This document shows positions 238 to 29,512 of a DNA stretch of 29,554 bases, one piece after another (position 1 is the first letter of the stretch; every line of letters begins with the position of its first letter). The stretch is from NCBI GenBank assembly GCA_017452945.1, contig JAFTLD010000035.1, forward strand, positions 1 to 29,554. Direction: 5' to 3'. The position numbers and the translations under genes are program-made. The notes under the pieces are model-generated. The model was not told the DNA's origin and did not search any database. It saw only the letters and a list, made by a program, of their open reading frames with translations. The stretch comes from Clostridia bacterium. Its GTDB lineage: Bacteria > Bacillota_A > Clostridia > Oscillospirales > CAG-272.

Positions 238-1518
238 ATGAAAAAACACATATTACGTGCGCTTTGTGTCGCTTGCGTTTTGACGCTTTGCTTGCCTATG
301 GCAGCTTGCGACATGGAACTTGGCGGTCTTGTTGGCGAGTTGCTTGCGAACAAAGAACCCGATGGGGTTGTCCCACCTGAAGAATGGGCAAGCGATGTTG
401 TCATCGAAGACATTCTTCCCGAAATTGAAACCGCGATTGGCACAGGTTGGGATGAGGTCTTTACAGGTGATATTGCCACCGAACCCCCTTTCGAAGACAC
501 CACCTACGAATATGATTACGACAGCACCGAGCCTCCCACAACCGAGATTTACACGACCGAGCCTCCCGTTGAGGTCGCGCCGATTCCCGATCCCGTGATG
601 TACTACTCCCCGGATGAATACAACACATGGATCGGCGAGCAGCTCATGCAGCAATTCTTTGTCCCCGGTGGGCATGCAAGCTGGGATGGGCATGCCATGA
701 TCGAAGATTACCACGTCGAATACGTACGCATATACGGTTGGGTGGCGTTTGATACCGAGCAGGTCGGTGAAATTGGTTATCGTTTTGACAACGATGAATA
801 CATCTTTGACAATGCATTCTTAGTCGAAGCAGAGCAACCCGTCATTGACGCAGCGCTTTCCATAGGCGCGCTCTCTGCATCCAGAATCGACATCCGCATC
901 CCTGTCAAAGATCTTTCAGGCGAGCACGTCATTGAAATCGTGGGGCGCGACGCATACGGTTATATGGAAGTCATTGATACGTTCACAGTTGAAAAAATAG
1001 CTGATCCGGGTGCGCCTTTCTTCTTTGCAGACGCATATGATATGGCCGCTTGTGTCGAGCCGGATGCATTTCTCAGTTTGGACGTGCTCTCTGCAGAAGT
1101 CAGCGAAGACGGCTCGTACGTAACGTTGGTTTCCGGTGTTCAGAACGGTGGAGATCCATGGATCTTCCTTGGTCGTGACCGATTGCTGAGCACAGGAGCA
1201 CGCTATCTCGCAGTGAAATACCGCACATCCGCTGATAACGCCCCCAAAGGAGAGTTCTTTGTGGGCTCCAGCTTCATTACCGGTGGAGTGGATCAGGCAA
1301 GGTTCGAATATATAAATGACGGAGATTGGCATCTGCAAATCATAGACCTATCAACGGTCGAAGCCGTCAATGACTACCTTGACATAAAATATCTTAGATA
1401 CGATTTTTACGTTGAAGGAGTACATGAGCTTCCTATCGACGTTGCATACGTTGCTATCTTTACAACAGAAGAGGCTGCAATTCAGTACGATGCTGAACAC
1501 CCGACTTCAATGAATTAA
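238..1518 (+). CDS. Secreted lipoprotein with modules A and B, unknown function
   Basis: The 426-residue protein begins with a lipoprotein signal peptide: a KK start, a hydrophobic core and the lipobox MAAC with Cys24 as lipidation site. It should therefore sit on the outer face of the membrane. Residues 25-118 are an acidic Thr/Pro/Glu-rich spacer. Residues about 119-254 form module A (WIGE, FFVPGGHASWD, VEYVRIYGWVAF, VGEIGY, SASRIDIRIPV). Residues about 260-420 form module B (GARYLAVKYRT, GEFFVGSS, GDWHLQIIDLSTVEAV, IDVAYVAIFTTEEAA). Both modules recur in the giant lipoprotein at 7353-16181. The alternating strand pattern suggests beta-sandwich, possibly ligand- or carbohydrate-binding, folds; that is inference. 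No catalytic motif is visible. The start is fixed by the ribosome site and signal peptide. It is a single-gene unit between its own promoter and a strong terminator. Confidence 0.85.
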   Translation: MKKHILRALCVACVLTLCLPMAACDMELGGLVGELLANKEPDGVVPPEEWASDVVIEDILPEIETAIGTGWDEVFTGDIATEPPFEDTTYEYDYDSTEPPTTEIYTTEPPVEVAPIPDPVMYYSPDEYNTWIGEQLMQQFFVPGGHASWDGHAMIEDYHVEYVRIYGWVAFDTEQVGEIGYRFDNDEYIFDNAFLVEAEQPVIDAALSIGALSASRIDIRIPVKDLSGEHVIEIVGRDAYGYMEVIDTFTVEKIADPGAPFFFADAYDMAACVEPDAFLSLDVLSAEVSEDGSYVTLVSGVQNGGDPWIFLGRDRLLSTGARYLAVKYRTSADNAPKGEFFVGSSFITGGVDQARFEYINDGDWHLQIIDLSTVEAVNDYLDIKYLRYDFYVEGVHELPIDVAYVAIFTTEEAAIQYDAEHPTSMN

Positions 1519-1572: not shown

Positions 1573-3174
1573 TTATTCACCTTTTACCGTAATCACACGG
1601 CAATCGCCCGTATAGGCGGTAGAGGTGATGTATTGCGGTACGCCGTTTGGCAGCACGTCCTCGTGCGTGAAGTGCATGTGACCTGCAAAAATAGCAACGA
1701 CGGGGGTATTTTCATCCTCTGCAACTGCAGCATAGAAGCGTTGTACGTCTTCATTCCAAGCGCAAACACCGCCATCTCCACCCATGCCCAAATCCTTGCC
1801 CCAGACCTTTGTGCTGTCTTCGACCAAAGAATCCACGTGCAGCGGCACGTGCAGCATCAGGATGATGGGCTTGCCCTTTTCGCAAAGAGCTAAGAACTTA
1901 TCCACGGTGGAAGCAGTTACGTAATCTGCGCTGTTGTCCACCGCAACGATCATAAACTCATCGTATTCCACGTATCTGACAGACATATCGTCCGCAGGCT
2001 CTCCCACAGTCATCTTATTGAACTCGGGAATATAGGTAGCAGCGGCACTCGGAGTCAGATAGTCGTCGGCAAAGCACCAGTCGTGGTTGCCAAGCGTAAA
2101 CAGCGTAGGGGTTTTGAGCGCCTTGATGTTGTCGTACATCATGGACATATTCAGCTCGGACGGGAAATCAATGATATCACCCGTCAAAAGCAGCATATCT
2201 GCGCCAATTTCATCGGCATAACCGAACATATAAGGCATGCGCTCCTCTGCAAGCAGGAAACCATCGGTGAAGGCACCTCTGCGCCCTGCAATGTAGTTGC
2301 GGCGGTTTGCATTCATAGCCTCAGCCTCGGTGGTGCTGTATGCACTCGAATGCAAGTCAGTCACCTGCAGGAAGGTGTATTCCTTGGATAATCCCGGAAT
2401 GGTCAGCGTGGTGTAGGTCGGTACGACCAACTTTATGCCCGAGAGCTCCAACACCTCGGACTTAGACGAGGCGATTACGATCGATTTGATGTAAACCGTC
2501 TCTCCCGCAGTTTTTGTATCTGCAAAGTTGATCTTGAGCTGAGAAAGCACAGCCCCTTCCTTTTCGGATAAAGAGAGCGGCACGATCACGGTCTGCCAAT
2601 CCGTTGACAATCTGTTATAAGTGGTACTTCCTTTGCTCTTCGAGGTGGTACCGTTAGCCTCGGTGCTCACGGTCACCTCAAAAGCATTGGAAGATACGCC
2701 CTCGGTTTTGAGCGTCACAACAACGTAAGCACAGTCATTCCAAGGCACCTGCTCCAAGGACAGCAGCTGCATATAGGTTGCGTAATCCAACGTCAGGTAA
2801 GGATCGCGGATCTTTTCGCCGTCGGTCGTCAGCTTGAGCACAGATGCTTCTCCATCCTTGACGATCTCAAACGTACTGTATTTGGCTGTCAGCAACGTTT
2901 GGTTTGCGCTGTTTTCATAGAAGGTAATCAGCTTGCTGTTCGTAGGGCTTTCTGGCGTAATTTCAATCTGTGGGCCTTGCGTTTCAGGCTCGGTCTGCGA
3001 TTCGGTTTCCGTTTCTGAATCAACCTGCGTTGAATCGGCAGGTATCTCAGTCGTCAATTCATCGGTACTGTCAACAGGCGGATCATCGGTATTTGCATCG
3101 CAGGCAACCATGCAGAACAGCATACTCAGCAGCAAAGCTCCCGCAATCAATCTCAGACGTTTTTTCACGTTCAT
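1573..3174 (-). CDS. Calcineurin-like metallophosphoesterase lipoprotein
   Basis: The protein has 533 residues. A signal peptide ends in the lipobox MVAC (Cys25), followed by an acidic Ser/Thr/Glu/Pro spacer to about residue 78. Residues about 79-252 look like a beta-sandwich accessory domain. The C-terminal half has the full metallophosphoesterase signature in order: DLH (about 273-275), GDIIDF (about 331), GNHDW (about 362), LHVPLHV, and GHMHF (about 499). These supply ligands for a two-metal centre, so phosphoester hydrolysis outside the cell is likely; substrate is unknown. The accessory domain (YVVVTLKTEG, DWQTVIVPLSLS, ending VYIKSIVIASSKSE) loosely resembles module B of the neighbouring lipoproteins. 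The gene starts 34 bases after thrS with AGAGG before the ATG and no terminator or promoter between, so it is probably the last gene of the thrS transcript. Confidence 0.88.
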   Translation of the reverse strand: MNVKKRLRLIAGALLLSMLFCMVACDANTDDPPVDSTDELTTEIPADSTQVDSETETESQTEPETQGPQIEITPESPTNSKLITFYENSANQTLLTAKYSTFEIVKDGEASVLKLTTDGEKIRDPYLTLDYATYMQLLSLEQVPWNDCAYVVVTLKTEGVSSNAFEVTVSTEANGTTSKSKGSTTYNRLSTDWQTVIVPLSLSEKEGAVLSQLKINFADTKTAGETVYIKSIVIASSKSEVLELSGIKLVVPTYTTLTIPGLSKEYTFLQVTDLHSSAYSTTEAEAMNANRRNYIAGRRGAFTDGFLLAEERMPYMFGYADEIGADMLLLTGDIIDFPSELNMSMMYDNIKALKTPTLFTLGNHDWCFADDYLTPSAAATYIPEFNKMTVGEPADDMSVRYVEYDEFMIVAVDNSADYVTASTVDKFLALCEKGKPIILMLHVPLHVDSLVEDSTKVWGKDLGMGGDGGVCAWNEDVQRFYAAVAEDENTPVVAIFAGHMHFTHEDVLPNGVPQYITSTAYTGDCRVITVKGE

Positions 3175-7352: not shown

Positions 7353-10300
7353 TTATCCTTCAATAAAGGTGATAGAATGAATGCATATCAGGGTTCCTTG
7401 CGGGTTGTGTACTGCTGCCCACAGATTACCACTGTAAGTGATCTCGGAAAGATCAATTTCAGCGGTTCGTACGCCTGCGCCATGCCATCCTGCTTCGGAA
7501 AAGACCATATCCGTATATGCAATAGCATCTTCATAATTAGAATCAGTCTCCTGGCCGAAGGAAGAGTTGCTGCTCTTTAATCCAATATCAAGCGAAGAGG
7601 CTGCAGCAAATGCATCAGCGGTCACCTTCGTTCCGTCGCAGGAATAAGCAATCAACACTTTGGAATAATTGGAAAGATCCAAATTGCCAAGGTATACGGT
7701 GTTGCCATAACCAAGCAGGCACACGGGATTGCTAATCCAGGCTTCGGGGAAGCTCGGTTTATAAACATTTGCATTTGCCGGTTTATTCATGTCTACCACA
7801 TATGAACCCGAACCATCGGGAACAACAGGATCTTCCATATGGTCGGGATTTTCAACTTTTTCCGGCTTGGTGGCATCGTACGGAACGTCCTCATACCCCA
7901 ACTGTGCATCGTAAGCCTCGGCTGCTTCAATTGAAGAAAACGATGCAATGTACGCAATATCGATCATGCGATCTGTACCGTCGGTAAAGCAATCTACTCG
8001 CAGATAACCCAATACATAAGAGCTTGCAACCGCCTCGACATTTTTCAAATCAACAATAAGTAAATGCCATTCACCATCTGGAATATAGTCCAGGACGACA
8101 TGATCTCCCACACCGGTCCATGCGCTGCCGGAGCCCAAATACAGTTCTCCGTCGCAATCCTCGGTGGTGCGGTATTTGATTACAAGGTATCTGCCTACTC
8201 TGACTCTGGAGTTCATCGGAATTGCAGCAAAATATATATCCGATCCTGCTCCAAGGATAGAAACGTACTTCCCTTCCGCACGCAGCTCAGCTGCTGCGAT
8301 CAGACAATTTATCGAGTTGTCTGCAATAGCAGTAGCTTTGTCATACATAGCAGGAGCGTCGAACAAAAACCGAGGTTGAGTTGTTTCTGTTGAATCCGAG
8401 GGAGTTTCATCACAATGAACGATAACCGAATTCAGACACCAATCTATACCCTTCTCCACTGCTTCCCATTCCACTTCTGTTCCGGTATAATAAATATCAG
8501 ACAAAGAGGTGCATTCGGCAAACACATACTTACCGATACTAATTATATCTCGGGGAATCTCAACATTGTTTAACTCATAGCATCGACTAAATGCAGCATC
8601 ACCAATGCTGACGATATTTTTTGAAATAGATACCGTCATCAATTCGTAGCAATTACCAAACGCGTACTGACCTACGCTGAGCACACTGTCAGGAATAACA
8701 ACATTTGTCAGACTGCTGCATCCGCAAAACACATATTCATTAAGATCCATCACGTTATTCGAAATAATTACACTCGTTAAACCTGTGCAATGACCAAAAG
8801 CCCAAGAGCCAATACTGGTTACACTATCAGGAATGGCTATGCTTGTCAGCGCACTACACCCATAAAAAACGTTTTTACCAATACTGGTCACACTGTCTGG
8901 AATAATAACACTTGTCAAATTTTCACAGCCATAGAAAGTCCAGTCATCTATGCTTGTTACACCATCCAAAATTTCTACATCTCCTCCAACAGCCCAAGGA
9001 ACAGCAATGATTTCCTTAGTTTCTTGGCTGTAAAGAATTCCATCTTTTGCAATGATATACGAATTGCCTTCTGCGATCGATATATAGGTCAACTGTCTAT
9101 ATAAATCAAATATCTGATCATCTTCAATTTCCTTACATGACTTTTCTATTTCAAAAGATGTGATTGTAGCATTCGACAGGCACAACAGAATAGAGCATGT
9201 TTCCCCATTCTCTTCCCAACTGGAGTATATCGCATTACCATTGCAGTAATAAGTCGGATTGTCTTCATGGATAATGATTATTTTATCACCGGCCAATGAA
9301 TGCTGAATTCTACAAAACTCCCCACGCACATAATTTCCGCCAAACATCCCTGTTGGTGGAGCATCTTGGTATCCATCTCCCCAATTACTATATCCTACAC
9401 CGTCAACTTTTTCGCCGAATGTTATTTGTGAAAGATAAGATAATTTAGCAAATCCATCTCCACGTCCAAAGGCATCTCTTCCAATTATTACTGTCTCGTT
9501 AGGAATGGTATATTGAGTGCGCGGATTTGCAAGAGGATATTGGATCAAAGTATATAAAGATTTTGTAAATAAAACTCCATCTATTGATCTAAAATACGGA
9601 TTATTTACGTCCACCCAAATATTTTCTATCGTTGGATGTTGAAAAGGACTGTTCCAAACAAATCTCACGGTCGAAGGAATAAAAATTGAGGTAACTTCTT
9701 CAGCTAAAAATTCAACACCCTCAAGCAATACTCCATTAGATATTCCACCAATGGATATAACCTCATACTCAATAGAATCTTGAATGACCGTTTCCGGGAT
9801 TACAACATCTCCATTTATCGAAATACCTGTCAGTTGTACCGCATTATAACCTACTATCACGTATTCCAACCCGGCTTCGCTAAAGGTTTCTCGCAAAAGC
9901 CAATCAGCATCCGTAAAAGGCGTGTCGGATCTTGCAGGCAATCCATAAAGGAAATCCACACCTTGGTCACTTGGACTCGATATAATGTGTGTGTCCACAA
10001 AAGAAGCTTCCGGGGCGCCCCATATGCCATCACTCCAGTTAACGTTTTGCGAATCATTAACACAGAAGTAATTATAAGAGATTCCCCACATCCACGTAGG
10101 GGTATCATCCCATGTCAGGTCAAACCAATACCAGTTGCCGTCATCCATTTGCACCAGATTCCATGCATGCTCCTGACCGTAGCTTTGTCCGGTCACGAAT
10201 ACGTTTTCTACATCCAAGAAATTCAAAAGCAGCTGGAAGGTTCTGGCATAGCTTTCACACACACCACTTTGATTTTCAAACACACCGAGAATATTGTGCG

Positions 10301-13300
10301 CCCAAGCGTCATCCTGCGGAGTCACACCATCATCCTCATATGCATAATCGACTGCATAAATGATAGCATCGTGCAGCGCCAATGCAATACGGTAGTTAGA
10401 GGTTTCGCCTTGCAACTCGGTCAGATACTCCTCAACAGCACTGTATACCAATGCATTATATACAGCACGCTCCGCTCCTGTATCGTATGCGTCCTCGGTC
10501 AGCAAGAACAACTCCCGATCCGTCATCGAAACGGTTGTGGATATCCAATAATACAACGGGTGATCGTTTTTATAAGTCAACCAAACGGCAATCGCCTGAT
10601 CTTCACTTAATCCGTATTGCTTGAAATTCAAGGATGCCACCACATTATCAGTGGCATCCATATTTACGTCTGAATGGAACGCCATGGCAGCCTGATCTAT
10701 CAGATCATAAAGCGACTGCATGGCAGTTCCCTGCGACATTGTTCCAAGATACGAGTATCCGTAGTCATCACTGTACGCTTCAGGATTGCTGTAATGTCCA
10801 AGCTTCGGTACAACCTTTTGCGCTACCAGCACCTCATCGCAGACGGAGCAATGAGAGCCTTCCGTCAATCCGGTTTCTGTAGAAGTAGGAGCAACTGCAG
10901 GATCAATCACCTCTGTGTGACCCAAAGCATCAATGCTCTGCGTTTCCACTTCCCCGCAATCACAAGTGCGCTGCTGTTCACCGTTTTCAGTACAGGTTGC
11001 GTCCTTGACTGTCATCCAATCGCCAAACGCGTGATCATGCGGCTCGTCAGGGATTTCGGGCGTGTCGGGCTGATTCGGCTGTTCACCGCTCATGGATTGT
11101 TCAAAATGCTTTTCGGCTGCTTCGACCGAGTGGAAAGCAGCAATGTACGCTACGTCAATAGACTGATATTGACCGTCCAGATAAGGATCATAGCGCAGAT
11201 AGTTGAGAACGTAACTCTCATTCACGGCAGAAACGGTAGAAATATCTGCAATTGCAAGATGCCATTCGCCATCTGCAATATAGGTAAATACGACCTCATC
11301 GCTACCGCCCTTGGGACCTGCGCCGGAACCGACAAAGAACTCACCGCTCGAGCCTTCGACCGTTGTGCGGTATTTGATGACAATGTATCTTGCCCCTTTA
11401 TTTCTAATGCCATCAGAGGGACTGTAGAGATAGAAATAGGGGTCACCACCGTCTGTGGAGGTCAGAGTCACAAAAGAAGCATCACCGCTCAGAATCGCAG
11501 ACGCGATATGATTGGGAGAAAAGCCTTCGAGTGCTGCCTTTGCGATATACGTAGCACTAAATTCAAACACAGGGGCTTGGGGATCTTCAGGCTCCGGCTC
11601 AGCGCTTTCACCGTTGAAGTGAATGGTTGCATAATGGAAGCATTCGTTATTGTTATAACTAATATATTTCTCTACCGCTGCCCATTCTTCTTCCGTACCA
11701 AGGTAATAAACATCGGTCAGACCTGTGCAATTCAAAAATGCAGCTCTACTGATAAGCGTAACACTATTCGGAATAGTGATGCTTGTCAGGCCTGTACATC
11801 CGACAAACGCATGCATACCTATCTGTGTAACGCCATCGGGGATAGAACTGTTTCTACAACCTAGCACTAACTTGTTTGTCTCAATTTCAATAATGCAGTT
11901 TCCCTCGCTTCTGTATACAGGATTATCGGGAGCTACAACAATATTCAAAAGACCAGAACAATCCCCAAATGCACTGCTTGCCAAGGAGGTGACATTGCTC
12001 GGAATAAAGATGTTAGTAAGACCGATGCACCCTCCAAAAGTGTTTCTTCGAATGGAAGTAACACCATCCGGAATAATAATACTTGTCAAACCAGTACAGC
12101 CGGAGAATGCAAAGCCTCCGATATCTGTTACACTGTCCGGAATTGTTATGTTTATCAAACCGGTACAGTAAGAGAACGCATAACCACCAATGCTTGTCAC
12201 GCTATCTGGAATCGTAATGCTCGTCAAGCCGGTACATTTTTCGAACGCTAAATTTCCAATGTTTGTTACGCTGTTCGGAATTAAAATACTTGTCAATCCA
12301 CTGCAGCCGGAGAATGCAGAATTGCCAATACTTGTCACACCGTTACCAATAGTAACACCTGTCAAGCCGGTACATTTTGCAAACGCTGATTCCCCAATAT
12401 TTGTTACGCTGTCAGGGATAGTAATACTTGTCAAACCAGTACAGCCGGAGAATGCAGAATCGCCAATACTTGTCACACTACCAGGAATCGTAATGCTTAT
12501 CAAGCCAGTACAGCCGGAGAATGCAAAATCGCCAATACTTGTCACACTATCCGGAATCGTAATGCTCGTCAAGCCTCTGCAATAAGAAAATGCAGTAGCG
12601 CCAATACTTGTCACAGAGCCATCCACAGGAATTACACTAGCCTTGCATCCAATGACCAATGTTTTGCTTTCTGTTTCTATTACGCAATCTCCTCTACTAT
12701 GGTAGCGTGGATTACCATCCGTAACTACGATGCTCGTCAAGTCGTCGCAGAATGCAAATGGACTATTACCAATGCTGGTCACACTATCCGGAAGAGTAAT
12801 GCTGGTTAAACTGGTACAAAGTGCGAATGCACTATTTCCAATGCTTGTAACACCATTACCAATAGTCACACTTGTCAAGCCGTTGCATTGTTTGAAAGCC
12901 CTATCACCAATGCTTGTTACACTCCCCGGAATCGTAATGCTCATCAAACTGTAACAACTATCAAACGTACGAACACCAATACTTGTCACGCCATCCGGGA
13001 TAGTGATACTCGTTAAAGCAGTACAACCAAAAAATGCAGAATCACCAATGCTTGTTATGCTGTCCGGCATGGTGATACTCGTCAAGTCACAACGTCTGAA
13101 CGCAAGATATCCAATTTCTACAACAGGCAAGCCTTCATACATTGCGGGAATTACGACATCTGTATCGGTACACGTGCCGATGCCTGTGACAACGTATCCT
13201 GTTCCTTCTTCGTTCAATTTGTACGCCAAGCCCTCGCTGGCCTCATCCGCGGGTTTATCCGGAGTATCGGGATCGTCAGGAGTATCAGGTTCATCGGGAA

Positions 13301-16181
13301 TTTCGGGCTCATCAGGTGTTCCCTGCTCGCCCCAGACAAATACAATGCGGTCAATGATGATAAATTGGGCTTCAAGGAAGTCTGCCGAAATGTATACGGG
13401 CCCGCTGTAATCAACATCGGTCAGATCAACCTCATGCGCTGTAACCGTCCAACCGCCATCGGGGGTATACGGTGCTGCTATGAAGCTTCCACGGTCGGGG
13501 TTCATGATATTATTACAGTCATAACCGGTTAAACCGATCATGCCAAATCCCTGTTCTTTCGCAGCAGCAAGGCCTTCCTGAGTGAGTTCACTCCAGTCGG
13601 ATGCGTAGTAAATGATCACCTTGCCGTAATTGGACAAATCCACGTCACCCAAGTAGATAGAACCTTGGTGAAGCATAGCACCGGATGTCAAGTTTGCAGC
13701 TTGAATCATCATATAATGACTCGGGTGATTCTCCTTGGTTACAATATCAGGCATGTGACCCGTGATACAACCTGTGGGCAGATCGCGGGGATCTACGATC
13801 CAATTTTCACCCTCCGGGATCACAGGCATTTCGGGGTCATCCGGAGTATCGGGTTCGTCAGGAATCTCGGGATTGTCGGATTCTTCTGTTTTGATCAGCG
13901 TGAACTCAACCAGAGTTGCCACGTTTCCTGCAGCATCTCTGACCAAAGCCTTCACGGTATATTCGCCAACCAGATCGGCAACAGGAATCATGATCTTCAT
14001 TCTGGAGGCAGATTTTGCTAAAAAGATAGCTGCTGCATCGATCACAGCCTGATCAGGCTCAACATAAAAGTCCGAAGAGAAAACGGGTTCGTTATCACCA
14101 ATCTGGTAGCCAAACTCGCCTACAGTTTCGCTACAGAAGCCTACCCAACCCCAAACACGGATATACTCTACGTCAAGGCCAACCTTGGCAATGTTATCCC
14201 ATGCGGTGTGTTGTCCGGGATTGAAGAATGCCTTTCCCTGTGTTTCGCCAATCCAAGCATCACACTCATCAAAAGATAAAAAGGTAATGACTTTTGCGAA
14301 ATTACAGAAAGTACAGATACCGTCTGCAAAGCTATGCTCTGTATACATTTCAGTAGAACAACGCTCACAAACAGCAACGTGCCATTTCTCGTCGGAAGGT
14401 TGGCATACACCGAAATCATGGCCAAGCGCAGCGACTTCATCCGCAACATAGGTGTCACCACAATCAAGACAAGTATAGATAGTATAGCCGGCATCTGCAC
14501 AAGTCGGCGCAGTTACTACAGCTTGGTAATTGTGACCTGTTGCAGGAATTTCTTCCTGTGCAACCAGCACCAAACCGCAAACAAAGCAGTGAGAGCCTTC
14601 GGTCAAGCCGGTTTCGGTACAAGTAGGCGCGACCGCTTCAGAAATCATTTCGGTGTGGCCAAGTGCATCTACCACTTCCTGTGCAACGAGGACTTCGCCG
14701 CATACGGAGCAATGCTTGCCTTCGGTCAAGCCGGTGTTTACGCAATCGGGAGCGACTGCCGCGTCAACAACTTCGGCATGTCCAAGTGCTGCTACTTCTT
14801 CCTGTGCAACGAGCACTTCACCGCATACGGAGCAATGCTTGCCTTCGGTCAAGCCGGTGTTTATGCAATCGGGTGCAACTGCGGCATCTACTACTTCGGT
14901 GTGGCCGAGCGCTGCTACTTCTTCCTGCGCGACAAAAACTTCGTCGCATACGGAGCAATGCTTGCCTTCGGTCAGACCGGTGTTTACGCAATCGGGAGCG
15001 ACCGCTGCGTCAATCACTTCGGCGTGTCCGAGTGCAGGTGCAAGCTCGATGCCGCAGACCAGACAGGTTTGATTTGCGGTACAGGTGGGTTCTGCGCCGG
15101 GAGTGTGACCGTTTGCAGACGCCAGTTGTTCACCGCAAACCGTGCAGGTTTGAGGCTCGGTACAGGTAGCCTCTGCACCGGGCGTATGTCCAAGTGCATC
15201 AACAATTTCCTGTGCAACGAGAACTTCGTTACACACAGAGCAGTGTTTACCTTCAGTCAAGCCGGTTTCGGTGCAGGTGGGTGCAACCGCTGCGTCAACG
15301 ACTTCGGTATGGCCGAGTGCATCAACGATATCCTGTGCAACAAAAACTTCGTTGCAAACCTCGCAGTGCTTCCCCTCTGTCAAACCTGTTTCGGTACAGG
15401 TGGGTGCAACTGCTGCGTCAATAACCTCGGTGTGGCCGAGAGCATTCACAACCACAGTCCCTCGACTCATTTCCGCATGACATACAGAGCAATATACAAC
15501 CTTTTCATAAGAACCTGCCAAGGTACATGTTGCCGCCACTCTGTTTTCTTCCACAGAAGCGGAAGCAGTGTGAGCAAGAGGATCCACCGTATTCACAACA
15601 CGGCTCATCTCCGCATTACATACAGAACAATAAATAACCTCTTCGTAAGAGCCTGCTGCGCTGCACGTAGGCTCTGAAGTATTTTCAACTACTGTTGTTC
15701 CTTCGACATGCCCAAGTGCGTCAACACTCTGTGTTTCGGTTTCGCCGCAATCGCAGGTACGCTGCTGTTCACCGTTTTCGGTGCAGGTTGCGTCCTTGAC
15801 GGTTGTCCAATCGCCAAACGCGTGAACGTGCGGCTCGGTTTCGGGTTCACTCGTGTCCTCGGTTCCGGGCTCGTTCGTGTCCTCGGTGCCGGGCTCATTC
15901 GTGTCCTCGGTGCCGGGTTCGCTCGTGTCCTCGGTTCCGGGCTCATTCGTATCCTCGGTGCCGGGATCATTCGTATCCTCGGTGCCGGGATCACTTGTGT
16001 CCCCTGCTTCGGGTTCGCTCGCGTCCTCGGTTCCGGGCTCGTTTGTCCCATCATCCGATGCAGCCGTTGTTTGTTCCGTCGATCCACTCGGCGGTTGCGG
16101 ATCGTCTGTGTCGTCACACGCTACGAAGAGCACCGTGAATGCCAGTAGTGCCGCCAAAAGCCATAATACTGTCTTTTTCAT
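7353..16181 (-). CDS. Giant multidomain BspA-like LRR lipoprotein with transglutaminase-like domain
   Basis: This 2,942-residue protein should be tethered outside the membrane. The chosen ATG (16181) has GGAGG before it and starts a signal peptide ending in lipobox FVAC (Cys22); an in-frame ATG at 16211 would spoil it. Order, rough residues: GTED/EP octad spacer 23-113; thirteen Cys-rich units 115-630; module A 631-766; Pro/Asp/Glu spacer; module C1 791-952; eighteen LRR_5/BspA-type units 998-1510; module B1 1537-1699; two Cys-rich units 1714-1794; transglutaminase-like domain 1795-2054 (GVCESYA, QEHAWNL, WFDLTWDD as Cys-His-Asp triad); a second, degenerate then regular LRR block 2100-2584; module B2 2602-2762; module C2 2790-2942. 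BspA-type repeats in other anaerobes mediate adhesion, so a surface-binding role is plausible. There is no LPXTG or SLH anchor. The reading frame is intact throughout. Confidence 0.93.
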   Translation of the reverse strand: MKKTVLWLLAALLAFTVLFVACDDTDDPQPPSGSTEQTTAASDDGTNEPGTEDASEPEAGDTSDPGTEDTNDPGTEDTNEPGTEDTSEPGTEDTNEPGTEDTNEPGTEDTSEPETEPHVHAFGDWTTVKDATCTENGEQQRTCDCGETETQSVDALGHVEGTTVVENTSEPTCSAAGSYEEVIYCSVCNAEMSRVVNTVDPLAHTASASVEENRVAATCTLAGSYEKVVYCSVCHAEMSRGTVVVNALGHTEVIDAAVAPTCTETGLTEGKHCEVCNEVFVAQDIVDALGHTEVVDAAVAPTCTETGLTEGKHCSVCNEVLVAQEIVDALGHTPGAEATCTEPQTCTVCGEQLASANGHTPGAEPTCTANQTCLVCGIELAPALGHAEVIDAAVAPDCVNTGLTEGKHCSVCDEVFVAQEEVAALGHTEVVDAAVAPDCINTGLTEGKHCSVCGEVLVAQEEVAALGHAEVVDAAVAPDCVNTGLTEGKHCSVCGEVLVAQEVVDALGHTEMISEAVAPTCTETGLTEGSHCFVCGLVLVAQEEIPATGHNYQAVVTAPTCADAGYTIYTCLDCGDTYVADEVAALGHDFGVCQPSDEKWHVAVCERCSTEMYTEHSFADGICTFCNFAKVITFLSFDECDAWIGETQGKAFFNPGQHTAWDNIAKVGLDVEYIRVWGWVGFCSETVGEFGYQIGDNEPVFSSDFYVEPDQAVIDAAAIFLAKSASRMKIMIPVADLVGEYTVKALVRDAAGNVATLVEFTLIKTEESDNPEIPDEPDTPDDPEMPVIPEGENWIVDPRDLPTGCITGHMPDIVTKENHPSHYMMIQAANLTSGAMLHQGSIYLGDVDLSNYGKVIIYYASDWSELTQEGLAAAKEQGFGMIGLTGYDCNNIMNPDRGSFIAAPYTPDGGWTVTAHEVDLTDVDYSGPVYISADFLEAQFIIIDRIVFVWGEQGTPDEPEIPDEPDTPDDPDTPDKPADEASEGLAYKLNEEGTGYVVTGIGTCTDTDVVIPAMYEGLPVVEIGYLAFRRCDLTSITMPDSITSIGDSAFFGCTALTSITIPDGVTSIGVRTFDSCYSLMSITIPGSVTSIGDRAFKQCNGLTSVTIGNGVTSIGNSAFALCTSLTSITLPDSVTSIGNSPFAFCDDLTSIVVTDGNPRYHSRGDCVIETESKTLVIGCKASVIPVDGSVTSIGATAFSYCRGLTSITIPDSVTSIGDFAFSGCTGLISITIPGSVTSIGDSAFSGCTGLTSITIPDSVTNIGESAFAKCTGLTGVTIGNGVTSIGNSAFSGCSGLTSILIPNSVTNIGNLAFEKCTGLTSITIPDSVTSIGGYAFSYCTGLINITIPDSVTDIGGFAFSGCTGLTSIIIPDGVTSIRRNTFGGCIGLTNIFIPSNVTSLASSAFGDCSGLLNIVVAPDNPVYRSEGNCIIEIETNKLVLGCRNSSIPDGVTQIGMHAFVGCTGLTSITIPNSVTLISRAAFLNCTGLTDVYYLGTEEEWAAVEKYISYNNNECFHYATIHFNGESAEPEPEDPQAPVFEFSATYIAKAALEGFSPNHIASAILSGDASFVTLTSTDGGDPYFYLYSPSDGIRNKGARYIVIKYRTTVEGSSGEFFVGSGAGPKGGSDEVVFTYIADGEWHLAIADISTVSAVNESYVLNYLRYDPYLDGQYQSIDVAYIAAFHSVEAAEKHFEQSMSGEQPNQPDTPEIPDEPHDHAFGDWMTVKDATCTENGEQQRTCDCGEVETQSIDALGHTEVIDPAVAPTSTETGLTEGSHCSVCDEVLVAQKVVPKLGHYSNPEAYSDDYGYSYLGTMSQGTAMQSLYDLIDQAAMAFHSDVNMDATDNVVASLNFKQYGLSEDQAIAVWLTYKNDHPLYYWISTTVSMTDRELFLLTEDAYDTGAERAVYNALVYSAVEEYLTELQGETSNYRIALALHDAIIYAVDYAYEDDGVTPQDDAWAHNILGVFENQSGVCESYARTFQLLLNFLDVENVFVTGQSYGQEHAWNLVQMDDGNWYWFDLTWDDTPTWMWGISYNYFCVNDSQNVNWSDGIWGAPEASFVDTHIISSPSDQGVDFLYGLPARSDTPFTDADWLLRETFSEAGLEYVIVGYNAVQLTGISINGDVVIPETVIQDSIEYEVISIGGISNGVLLEGVEFLAEEVTSIFIPSTVRFVWNSPFQHPTIENIWVDVNNPYFRSIDGVLFTKSLYTLIQYPLANPRTQYTIPNETVIIGRDAFGRGDGFAKLSYLSQITFGEKVDGVGYSNWGDGYQDAPPTGMFGGNYVRGEFCRIQHSLAGDKIIIIHEDNPTYYCNGNAIYSSWEENGETCSILLCLSNATITSFEIEKSCKEIEDDQIFDLYRQLTYISIAEGNSYIIAKDGILYSQETKEIIAVPWAVGGDVEILDGVTSIDDWTFYGCENLTSVIIPDSVTSIGKNVFYGCSALTSIAIPDSVTSIGSWAFGHCTGLTSVIISNNVMDLNEYVFCGCSSLTNVVIPDSVLSVGQYAFGNCYELMTVSISKNIVSIGDAAFSRCYELNNVEIPRDIISIGKYVFAECTSLSDIYYTGTEVEWEAVEKGIDWCLNSVIVHCDETPSDSTETTQPRFLFDAPAMYDKATAIADNSINCLIAAAELRAEGKYVSILGAGSDIYFAAIPMNSRVRVGRYLVIKYRTTEDCDGELYLGSGSAWTGVGDHVVLDYIPDGEWHLLIVDLKNVEAVASSYVLGYLRVDCFTDGTDRMIDIAYIASFSSIEAAEAYDAQLGYEDVPYDATKPEKVENPDHMEDPVVPDGSGSYVVDMNKPANANVYKPSFPEAWISNPVCLLGYGNTVYLGNLDLSNYSKVLIAYSCDGTKVTADAFAAASSLDIGLKSSNSSFGQETDSNYEDAIAYTDMVFSEAGWHGAGVRTAEIDLSEITYSGNLWAAVHNPQGTLICIHSITFIEG
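8430..9000 (-). repeat. Second LRR repeat block of the giant gene
   Basis: Seven tandem units of about 23 codons (69 bases) with the pattern T-x-VxIPDSVTSIG-xxxFxxC encode LRR_5/BspA-type repeats. The block ends with IYYTGTEVEWEAVEK, the same closing motif (YYLGTEEEWAAVEK) that ends block 1. Upstream, to about 9,880, older diverged repeats are recognisable only by spacing (for example IIGRDAFGRG). Confidence 0.85.
10020..10795 (-). other. Transglutaminase-like domain coding segment
   Basis: This segment of the giant gene encodes a papain-fold transglutaminase-like domain. The catalytic Cys lies in GVCESYARTF, the His in QEHAWNLV about 36 residues later, and the Asp in WFDLTWDD. That spacing and the WFDLTWDD signature are typical of the bacterial family, which cleaves or cross-links peptide/amide bonds. 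The preceding roughly 110 residues are helical-looking and probably belong to the same unit. Confidence 0.82.
11650..13190 (-). repeat. First LRR repeat block of the giant gene (18 units)
   Basis: Tandem 69-base units encode the 23-residue pattern LTSITIPDSVTSIGDSAFSG plus CTG. I count 18 AF..C or TF..C units. Two insertions (GNPRYHSRGDCVIE and DNPVYRSEGNCIIE) interrupt the series after units 6 and 16, each followed by a conserved SIP turn. DNA similarity between units is high enough for slippage or recombination to change copy number. Confidence 0.9.
14300..15835 (-). repeat. Cys-rich CxxC repeat block of the giant gene (13 units)
   Basis: The full unit is 41 codons (123 bases), running from LGHTEVVDAAVAPTCTETG to TEGKHCSVC and EVLVAQE. 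Each unit has an upstream Cys, a His-Cys-x-x-Cys element and a following GH, suggesting small zinc- or disulfide-stabilised knots. Two short units (GHTPGAEATCTEPQTCTVCG type) sit in the middle and three divergent units at the N-terminal end. The last unit ends in CTFCNFAKV. Confidence 0.88.
15840..16050 (-). repeat. Octapeptide spacer repeat (GTEDTNEP type)
   Basis: About nine in-frame 24-base repeats encode variants of GTEDTNEP directly after the signal peptide. The acidic, Pro-containing sequence should be an extended stalk lifting the folded domains off the membrane. The exact octad periodicity makes it prone to length change. Confidence 0.9.
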
Positions 16182-16189
16182 ACTTGCCT

Positions 16190-16227
16190 CCATAAATAAA
16201 AAGTGCGTCAACCGAAGTTAACGCACT
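16190..16227 (-). terminator. Terminator-like hairpin in the leader of the giant gene
   Basis: On the minus strand, an 11-bp stem (16217-16227 with 16202-16212, one G-T pair) is capped by a TTCG tetraloop and followed by TTTTTATTTAT. GGAGG and the ATG at 16181 come immediately after. It lies downstream of the promoter and upstream of the gene, so it can only act as an attenuator or a 5' structure, not as the end of another gene. Confidence 0.75.
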
Positions 16228-16249
16228 AAAAACGCAAACTCCGATTGTC

Positions 16250-16391
16250 GCCAAACAAACTCAAGAAAAACAAGTATAAGCCATATTTAACCTTGATGGA
16301 ATTTGCATTTTTTCAAATTCTAAAAGTTAAATACAGCAAAGGGTATAATCCCCCTATGGAATTATACTTGTCATTATTAAGTTTGTTTGGC
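16250..16391 (-). promoter_or_regulatory. Structured leader built on a 30-base inverted repeat
   Basis: Arms 16250-16279 and 16362-16391 are inverted copies matching at 26 of 30 positions. Inside lie a GAATTTG/CAAATTC hairpin within TTAAC/GTTAA, and a GTATAAT-type stem (around 16344-16370) that competes with the outer stem. The predicted transcription start of the giant gene falls at about 16391, so the mRNA would begin with one arm of the long stem. I do not recognise a known riboswitch. The 16182-16532 gap otherwise holds only the promoters and ribosome sites. Confidence 0.6.
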
Positions 16392-16397
16392 TATTTC

Positions 16398-16426
16398 AGT
16401 ATACCATTTTCAAAAACATCTGTCAA
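16398..16426 (-). promoter_or_regulatory. Promoter of the giant lipoprotein gene
   Basis: On the minus strand, TTGACA (16421-16426) and TATACT (16398-16403) have a 17-base spacer. Transcription would start near 16391, giving an untranslated leader of about 210 bases before the ATG at 16181. Confidence 0.78.
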
Positions 16427-28722: not shown

Positions 28723-28762
28723 GAATTTGGAATGATAGATAATAGTGAAACGGAGAGCACCC

Positions 28763-29512
28763 ATGTCAAGACAAGCACGAGAAAAATGCGAAAGCAATAT
28801 CTACCACGTCATGCTGCGCGGTGCCGGTCAACAGCAGATTTTCGAGGACACCGAGGACTCCGAGCGTTTTTTGGAAATCTTAGCAGAATGCAAGCAGATC
28901 AGCGAATTTGCTCTGTATGCGTATTGCTTAATGGGAAATCACGTGCATCTGCTCATCAAAGAACAGCACGAACCGCTTGAGCAGATTGTCAAACGAATTG
29001 CTACGCGCTATGTCTATTGGTTCAACACAAAATACGAGCGTTGCGGGCATCTGTTTCAGGATCGGTTCAGAAGCGAACCTGTTGGCGACAAGCAATATTT
29101 CTTGACCGTATTGCGGTACATTCATCAAAATCCGGTCAAAGCGGGGATCTGCAATGTCGTAGAGGACTACGCCTATAGTAGCTACCGCGAGTACGTAACC
29201 TCTGCAAAAATCATCGATACCGAATTTGCATTTGCGCACGTTTCGCCTGAAGATTTCGAGCAGATCCATCATCTGCTCGAACAAACGCAATGCTTAGATA
29301 TAGAAAATCGGGAAGGCTCGCCGCGCGTGACCGATGAGCAGGCACGCAGGATCATCGAGATGCACACTAAGTGCAAAAATGCGAGTGATTTTCAACGTTT
29401 GGACGTTGCAACGAGAAACAAATACTTGAAGCTGCTAAAAGACAAGGGCTTGTCCATCCGACAGATCAGCCGCCTGACGGGGATCAGCTTTGGTATTGTT
29501 TCAAGAGTTTAA
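28763..29512 (+). CDS. REP-associated tyrosine transposase (Y1/HUH family)
   Basis: The 249-residue protein belongs to the single-strand DNA HUH transposases related to IS200/IS605 TnpA. The metal-binding HUH motif is in CLMGNHVHLLI, and the nucleophile Tyr is in FLTVLRYIHQNPVKAG, a signature of the REP-associated subgroup. The N-terminal MSRQAREKCESNIYHVMLRG and GHLFQDRFRSEPV also fit. A C-terminal extension (about 195-249) ends with a helix-turn-helix-like GLSIRQISRLTGISFGIVSRV, perhaps used to recognise DNA. A GTG at 28745 is possible, but GGAGAG sits before ATG 28763. Host-protein-like single-copy behaviour is usual for this subgroup: it acts on the flanking palindromes rather than moving as a classical IS. 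The gene looks intact. Confidence 0.9.
   Translation: MSRQAREKCESNIYHVMLRGAGQQQIFEDTEDSERFLEILAECKQISEFALYAYCLMGNHVHLLIKEQHEPLEQIVKRIATRYVYWFNTKYERCGHLFQDRFRSEPVGDKQYFLTVLRYIHQNPVKAGICNVVEDYAYSSYREYVTSAKIIDTEFAFAHVSPEDFEQIHHLLEQTQCLDIENREGSPRVTDEQARRIIEMHTKCKNASDFQRLDVATRNKYLKLLKDKGLSIRQISRLTGISFGIVSRV

Follow-up and report, generated by a model that had tools for sequence, protein, structure and literature searches.

A giant mosaic lipoprotein and its putative leader RNA switch in an uncultured gut Clostridia bacterium

What would an uncultured gut bacterium do with a surface protein of almost 3,000 residues, and how might it control the gene? These questions are raised by P0001, a mosaic lipoprotein gene (2,942 aa) at positions 7353..16181, minus strand, of a 29,554-nucleotide stretch of DNA, hereafter the window, that is, contig JAFTLD010000035.1 of assembly GCA_017452945.1 from a Clostridia bacterium (Oscillospirales, CAG-272). 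We estimate a probability of roughly 0.6 that P0001 is a conditionally expressed surface lipoprotein that combines glycan-binding-like modules, leucine-rich repeats (LRRs) and a thiol enzyme, is controlled by a leader RNA, and was gained as a unit. This reading builds on the computed frame and modules, the conserved Cys-His-Asp triad, fold similarity, the insertion site, and the conservation and covariation of the leader.

P0001 is a single stop-free frame of 2,942 codons that starts with an ATG at 16181 and runs down to 7353 (2,952 aa if the open reading frame (ORF) is counted from an upstream TTG), in agreement with the sequence-only reading of this DNA, which had described one intact frame. 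A misassembly of several genes, which could have undone that description, is disfavored because the identical protein is present on three contigs, the longest of 35,341 bases, although these possibly represent one data set assembled repeatedly; furthermore, gene order on either side of the gene matches that in sister genomes. The number of repeat units may nevertheless reflect assembly collapse or expansion. At the N-terminus, there is a signal peptide (16116..16181; this and all other features of P0001 and its leader are on the minus strand) with the lipobox FVAC ending at Cys22 and a single hydrophobic segment, residues 1-26, which, judged by eye rather than with a signal-peptide program, make P0001 a lipoprotein. 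It is followed by an acidic stalk of Thr/Pro/Glu/Asp tandem repeats of the TEDTNEPG type (15831..16115; repeats of 24/72 nt), Cys-rich array 1 (14286..15830), module A (13884..14300), module B (13323..13814), LRR block 1 (11622..13229), module C (11091..11576), Cys-rich array 2 (10800..11039), the transglutaminase-like domain (9957..10799), a divergent LRR region (8982..9956), LRR block 2 (8412..8984), and second copies of C (7896..8384) and B (7356..7814).

The lipid anchor, the stalk and the modules A, B, B, C and C that had been read from the letters were all recovered, the modules by phmmer (A, residues 628-766; B, 790-953 and 2826-2942; C, 1536-1697 and 2607-2757). The BspA-type LRR units likewise number 18 and 7 by the F..C..L motif, the 18 in block 1 comprising 17 regular units and one variant (AFRRCDL), and the Pfam family LRR_5 (PF13306) matches at 554 bits (cut-off 27.7; 3.5e-169). 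For the Cys-rich units, said to number 13 and 2, we counted 14 CxxC/CxC motifs in array 1 (residues 143-623), close to the former figure, and exactly 2 in array 2 (1740 and 1778). The start of array 2 has nearly the same residues as that of array 1 (HAFGDW.TVKDATCTENGEQQRTCDCGE), as though the catalytic domain had received a copy of an N-terminal block in front of it. The C..CxxC..GH pattern of the Cys arrays might point to zinc sites. Pfam matches to EGF_LMN_ATRN, Cornifin, LVIVD and zf-BED fell below the cut-off and were discarded.

The catalytic-looking part of the protein bears directly on its possible role. Transglut_core (PF01841) matches P0001 at 32 bits, above the gathering cut-off of 23 (1.6e-7), and the Cys, His and Asp of the sequence-only reading are in place: Cys1975, His2005 and Asp2021 (C181, H211 and D227 of the catalytic segment) are unchanged in 12/12 aligned rows, together with the motifs flanking the triad, down to 36% identity. 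A narrow triad pattern is matched by 15/21 proteins, and the other six keep C, H and D but differ in flanking residues. The fold of this segment matches that of Streptococcus pyogenes TglA (PDB 9crn), a protein with the papain/transglutaminase fold whose Cys, His and Asp align with the triad, although the identity is 18% and the match is limited to the catalytic part of P0001 (the solved TglA chain has 361 residues). Our literature search on the function of TglA found nothing.

Could the protein simply be an adhesin, with a vestigial or binding-only catalytic domain, that merely attaches the cell? BspA-type LRR proteins are known adhesins, and the NCBIfam family nearest to P0001 is the HupY/LrrG adhesin (NF047961), albeit at 184 bits, far below the cut-off of 1250. 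However, a vestigial site is unlikely given the invariance of the triad and the surrounding motifs over the 12 rows, and we regard the pure adhesin as a doubtful alternative. Quite unlikely, in our view, is a true transglutaminase that cross-links surface proteins or fastens the cell to material from a host or plant. The fold class and the Pfam name speak for such an enzyme, but the solved structures matched by the catalytic fold include, in addition to transglutaminases, LapG-type proteases, N-acetyltransferases and putative proteases, and signs of an acyl-acceptor site did not turn up, although no search was directed at one. Of the proposal that this is a surface protein that binds and modifies or cross-links a target, the surface lipoprotein with a catalytic-looking domain stands (lipobox, triad, fold match to TglA). 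Binding and modifying would suit our reading, and cross-linking is just one option among the several activities that the fold covers. Hydrolysis or deamidation appears more likely than cross-linking.

The third element of that proposal, binding, is supported indirectly. From their relatives, modules B and C are predicted to be beta-sandwiches resembling carbohydrate-binding modules (CBMs), B being CBM6-like and C CBM29-like, and relatives of module C are found in NAGPA and F5/8-C proteins; both observations are in line with glycan binding by P0001. The likeness is one of fold only: neither P0001 nor g1, a small lipoprotein of the window that consists of modules A and C (238..1518, plus strand; phmmer), matches a CBM family in Pfam, and the identity to CBM29, CBM30, CBM11 and CBM6 is about 6-16%. 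The A, B and C modules form a lineage-wide family, represented by 50 ORF rows, among them four shorter versions of genes already counted; Pfam was run on 37 of the rows. The closest relative of the N-terminal half of P0001, the 2,519-aa lipoprotein P0009, has the Cys array, A, B and C, and then LRRs, as in P0001, but lacks the catalytic module.

That module, of about 281 residues, is shared with 18 large relatives, every one of which contains LRR_5 and several of which are rich in CxxC motifs. These gut proteins resemble P0001 in LRR family and catalytic module; unlike P0001, none of the 20 catalytic-module relatives matches A, B or C. P0026 has in common with P0001 the Cys array, the catalytic domain and the region that follows it. 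In viral contigs, the module was detected at three weak loci (27-31% identity). A search for full-length homologues, which the sequence-only reading had suggested, yielded none: among the best 120 rows (from 7,997 candidates sharing most words that were scored), none covers more than 28% of P0001. A published precedent is known from Ruminococcus flavefaciens FD-1 (PMC2930009), where a run of genes encodes one LRR-dockerin protein together with four transglutaminase-like-dockerin proteins, so that in this rumen Clostridium, too, secreted transglutaminase-like and LRR domains are encoded side by side, but in separate cellulosomal dockerin proteins rather than in one lipoprotein. A transglutaminase-like domain also occurs in modular, adhesin-like surface proteins of gut methanogens (PMC11532034); these are archaeal, with archaeal big domains, beta-helical modules and a membrane helix, and LRR or Cys arrays are not described in the portion of that article available to us. 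Taken singly, the parts of P0001 belong to known kinds or are plain beta-sandwiches, and their combination did not appear in any database searched.

Beyond the lineage-wide module family, two further features extend the sequence-only reading, namely, a recent gain at an otherwise syntenic site and a leader RNA. Judging by the identity of the window ThrRS to those of three genomes, G001 (95%), G002 (95%) and G003 (93%, residues 1-386 only), the host is probably congeneric with all three. G002 retains the order g1 - metallophosphoesterase - ThrRS - g4 - SHMT - enolase - transporter - PolA - GDPD - AspRS - PRT, with g11 and g13 of the window unmatched in this region. The metallophosphoesterase gene, g2 (1573-3174, minus strand; Pfam 37 bits), encodes a lipoprotein without an A, B or C match at E 1e-2; its G002 counterpart is 75% identical, and the G001 contig has no match. 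Between SHMT and enolase, where P0001 resides, the gap between aligned ends is less than 100 bp in G002 and 67 bp in G001. Because SHMT and enolase are adjacent in both genomes and synteny is otherwise kept, P0001 with its promoter, leader and terminator amounts to a single-gene difference of about 9.2 kb that is most simply explained by a gain. No boundary repeat was found at the one filled/empty pair compared, the SHMT-enolase site in the window and in G001 and G002. Between enolase and transporter, G001 has a 990-aa frame that contains C, A and F5/8-C (L001:7544-10513, minus strand, the same as G001:C43:9128-12097), so the same neighborhood carries different lipoprotein genes in different species. 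An inverted repeat with a T-tract between SHMT and P0001 (7300..7342) is likely a shared terminator. Near the end of the window (28745-29512, plus strand), there is a frame that, by eye, we take to resemble an IS200-like/REP-associated tyrosine transposase.

The leader lies immediately upstream of P0001. A sigma-A type promoter (16398..16426; TTGACA-17-TATACT with a TG before the -10 box, 11/12 matches), whose placement relative to the leader recurs in relatives, precedes a structured RNA of 198 nt (16194..16391) that extends from the predicted start, a G 6 nt after the -10 box, to the U-tract of an intrinsic terminator. Its elements are a P1 stem with a 15-nt 5' arm (16377..16391) and a 3' arm (16250..16264); an apical hairpin, GAATTTG..GCAAATTCC (16298..16320), with a pattern conserved in 39/46 anchored copies; a conserved linker (16228..16247) with two alternative potential pairing partners, the apical hairpin and the 3' half of the terminator; and the terminator hairpin itself, with a UUCG loop (16202..16227), directly 5' of the ribosome-binding site (RBS), the Shine-Dalgarno (SD) sequence GGAGG (16187..16191). 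The stretch 16179-16400 has a folding energy of -81.5 kcal/mol, compared to -42.4 +/- 4 for shuffled sequences (z -9.8). In the P0001 leader, the 3' part of the apical hairpin pairs with the linker at 15/15 positions.

Several of these helices were compared among copies. The 46 aligned copies are those with the anchor GC[CGT]AAA[CT], chosen beforehand; alignment A7 omits the truncated L106 copy and L102, the twin of L103. The P1 candidate, the 5' arm of which lies outside our model R1 of the leader's 3' 74 nt and was placed solely via the -10 box and a GC dinucleotide, is present in 42/42 copies, 6 nt after the -10 box in 39/42. Pairs 3-12 are formed in 96.7% of cells in these 42 copies, a value reached in 0/1,000 controls with 3' arms swapped among copies (mean 80.7%, maximum 85.2%); the candidate is unpaired in two copies, L133 and the second L131. 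P1 changes on both sides, with AU 29, UA 8, CG 3 and GU 2 at position 8, and CG 20, UA 14, AU 4, UG 3 and one other at position 11. In the 41 distinct copies, the terminator helix is 99.2% paired and 5/10 of its pairs have changed on both sides (the alignment was fitted to the terminator), and the antiterminator, that is, the linker with the terminator 3' half, is 92.6% paired against at most 58.3% in the slid control. Both sides of the antiterminator changed in 17 cells versus 5.0 in shuffles, at only 2/11 pairs. For the 46 copies, RNAalifold yields a consensus containing P1, the apical hairpin and, in place of the terminator, the antiterminator. The linker-apical pairing comprises 14-15 of 15 pairs in 34/42 copies, 12 in three and fewer in five, one of which, L106, reaches 14 in another register; being almost invariant, this pairing is weak as covariation evidence.

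Riboswitches and leader RNAs that attenuate transcription comprise a promoter, a structured domain, a terminator overlapping an alternative helix, and an RBS. The P0001 leader has the same general layout and, as far as sequence comparison goes, both the conserved structured domain and the expression platform of a riboswitch; it differs from known attenuators in that it matches no Rfam family at the cut-off and its copies precede diverse genes. Together with a start site, glycan binding, and catalysis on some substrate, we infer switching in response to a signal. Transcription would start at the first nucleotide of the leader, of about 200 nt, that ends in the terminator just 5' of the RBS. With the linker paired to the apical hairpin, the terminator would be free and the gene off; with the linker paired to the terminator 3' half, the gene would be on. 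The RNA would terminate by default or upon a signal, with the linker choosing between terminator and antiterminator, and these alternative pairings are the reason to consider the expression of P0001 conditional. Once made, the protein would be held outside the cell by the lipid anchor and the stalk; A, B, C and the BspA-type LRRs would fix the cell or a substrate; and the thiol domain of the transglutaminase/papain fold would act on amide bonds of the bound material. Promoter, leader and gene would have arrived together between SHMT and enolase.

Two other views of the leader have to be weighed. It might be an independent small RNA gene without control over the gene behind it, given its own promoter and terminator and the 10/66 copies for which no clear SD and start codon are found within 60 nt. 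We consider this unlikely: the other 56/66 copies lie directly 5' of an SD and start codon, with a median gap of 18 nt, and the linker and terminator can form the competing helix in nearly all cells of the 41 distinct copies. Alternatively, the long inverted repeat, the many copies per genome, the linkage to a gained gene and the tandem copies at one locus (L149) could point to a DNA element, such as a miniature inverted-repeat transposable element or a recombination site with inverted ends. This we hold to be very improbable because the two-sided changes in P1, the fixed spacing of the -10 box before it (6 nt in 39/42) and the covariation of the terminator stem are not expected of an end recognized by a transposase. 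Two candidate identities were discarded as well: a type III toxin-antitoxin leader (RNA, terminator, toxin), because the downstream genes are diverse, and an integron attC site, because the P1 sequence varies and a promoter and terminator do not fit.

Conditional termination remains our preferred reading of the leader, and its copies are widespread. Within the genus, a DNA similarity search detected the leader in 3/4 genomes (10 matches), and R1, which was built including the window copy and scores it at 97 bits on the 3' part, in 4/4 (12 matches at E <= 0.01, with a score of just 43.8 bits in G002). R1 further matches 168/295 genomes of the family (E <= 1e-3; a single genome can have as many as 15 matches), 110/394 of the order and 77/391 of the class (both at E <= 1e-5), in draws that partly overlap and with rough E-values; a phylum draw (0/398) is uninformative because the query genome itself stayed below the threshold. 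Directly 3' of the genus copies are genes for an LRR lipoprotein, a TIR protein, small proteins and others. The 66 copies with inspected surroundings are the best-scoring and genus hits, not a random sample, and exclude the 5'-truncated copy of L149 as well as L168, which coincides in location with L133; their 56 downstream genes were sorted by a crude script into 12 lipoprotein-like, 13 encoding another N-terminal hydrophobic segment, and 31 other. Among eight downstream proteins scanned with Pfam, DUF6809, SLOG family, TIR_2 and LRR_5 were found once each and nothing in four; the rest were judged by eye.

Some loci carry several copies. At L149:1-1700, the leader occurs four times in tandem, with the first copy truncated; a near-identical RBS and ~28 initial codons come after every copy, and only the last one leads into a full gene (151 aa). 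The interiors of the three whole copies are 61-65.5% identical and their last 60 nt 93-98%, as if leader interiors had been exchanged. Downstream of the terminator, identity among the copies is 88-97%, apart from the third (46-48% ungapped, a small deletion shifting the register). At L150:370-760, two copies of the GCGACAT variant type are about 317 bp apart.

Is such a leader already known? Rfam 15 gave no family at the cut-off at the leader, none in the window, and only weak matches below the cut-off. Across 20 element-bearing loci, the three Rfam matches are two tRNAs and one Gut-1, none at the leader. Gut-1 matches occur just upstream of leader copies on the opposite strand, at L164:2629-2705 (plus strand, 73.2 bits, above the cut-off) and L101:2650-2735 (plus strand, 37.8 bits, below it). 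The leader is not named in the passages on chosen terms of Fremin and Bhatt 2021 (PMC8040213) or of a 50-genome survey (PMC11109978), and a prior listing in their motif tables is possible. Nor did the literature searched, as far as the accessible parts of the articles extend (including PMC2930009, PMC3573020, PMC8040213, PMC11532034 and PMC11109978), contain the full P0001 architecture, this leader RNA, or a bacterial TIR-membrane-LRR receptor with BspA repeats, although any of these could have been published elsewhere. What may be truly new here is the leader. We think it probable that it belongs to an undescribed class of conditional-terminator RNAs of about 200 nt that is present in multiple copies throughout a large clade of gut Clostridia. 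Such a class would place accessory and surface genes, including those for giant lipoproteins, LRR proteins, a TIR protein and a SLOG-family protein, under a common type of RNA switch, and might be a new riboswitch class with a shared signal.

This probable scenario also includes the P0001-type ectodomain in another setting in the same genus. In G003 (L046:364-6363, minus strand) and G001 (L033:268-4380, minus strand), TIR_2 (50.0 and 51.8 bits, respectively; cut-off 28), one membrane segment, an acidic stalk, a Cys array, A/C/B modules and LRRs are combined in one protein, the hydrophobic segment following the TIR domain at residues 194-223 (L046) and 251-282 (L033) of the stop-to-stop frames. 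These proteins look like a cytosolic TIR domain joined through the membrane to an ectodomain of the P0001 kind, and are possible bacterial receptors with external LRRs. Given that the same type of ectodomain stands behind a membrane segment and TIR, the A/B/C and LRR modules may act as sensor ectodomains. Strong TIR matches are present in 2/4 genus genomes, two each; in the family, 18/196 genomes have a TIR match, at no more than 49 bits outside the genus. Matches to a defense library are weak, about 17-21 bits.

P0001 shows uncultured gut Clostridia building surface machines from a shuffled kit that includes three unnamed module families. If the reading of the leader is correct, one frequent RNA switch that is not listed in Rfam controls a repertoire of surface proteins and accessory functions, and its signal, once found, would open the regulon. 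The TIR-membrane-LRR relatives, with the same ectodomain modules, would represent a bacterial receptor layout that is a mirror image of the Toll-like receptors.
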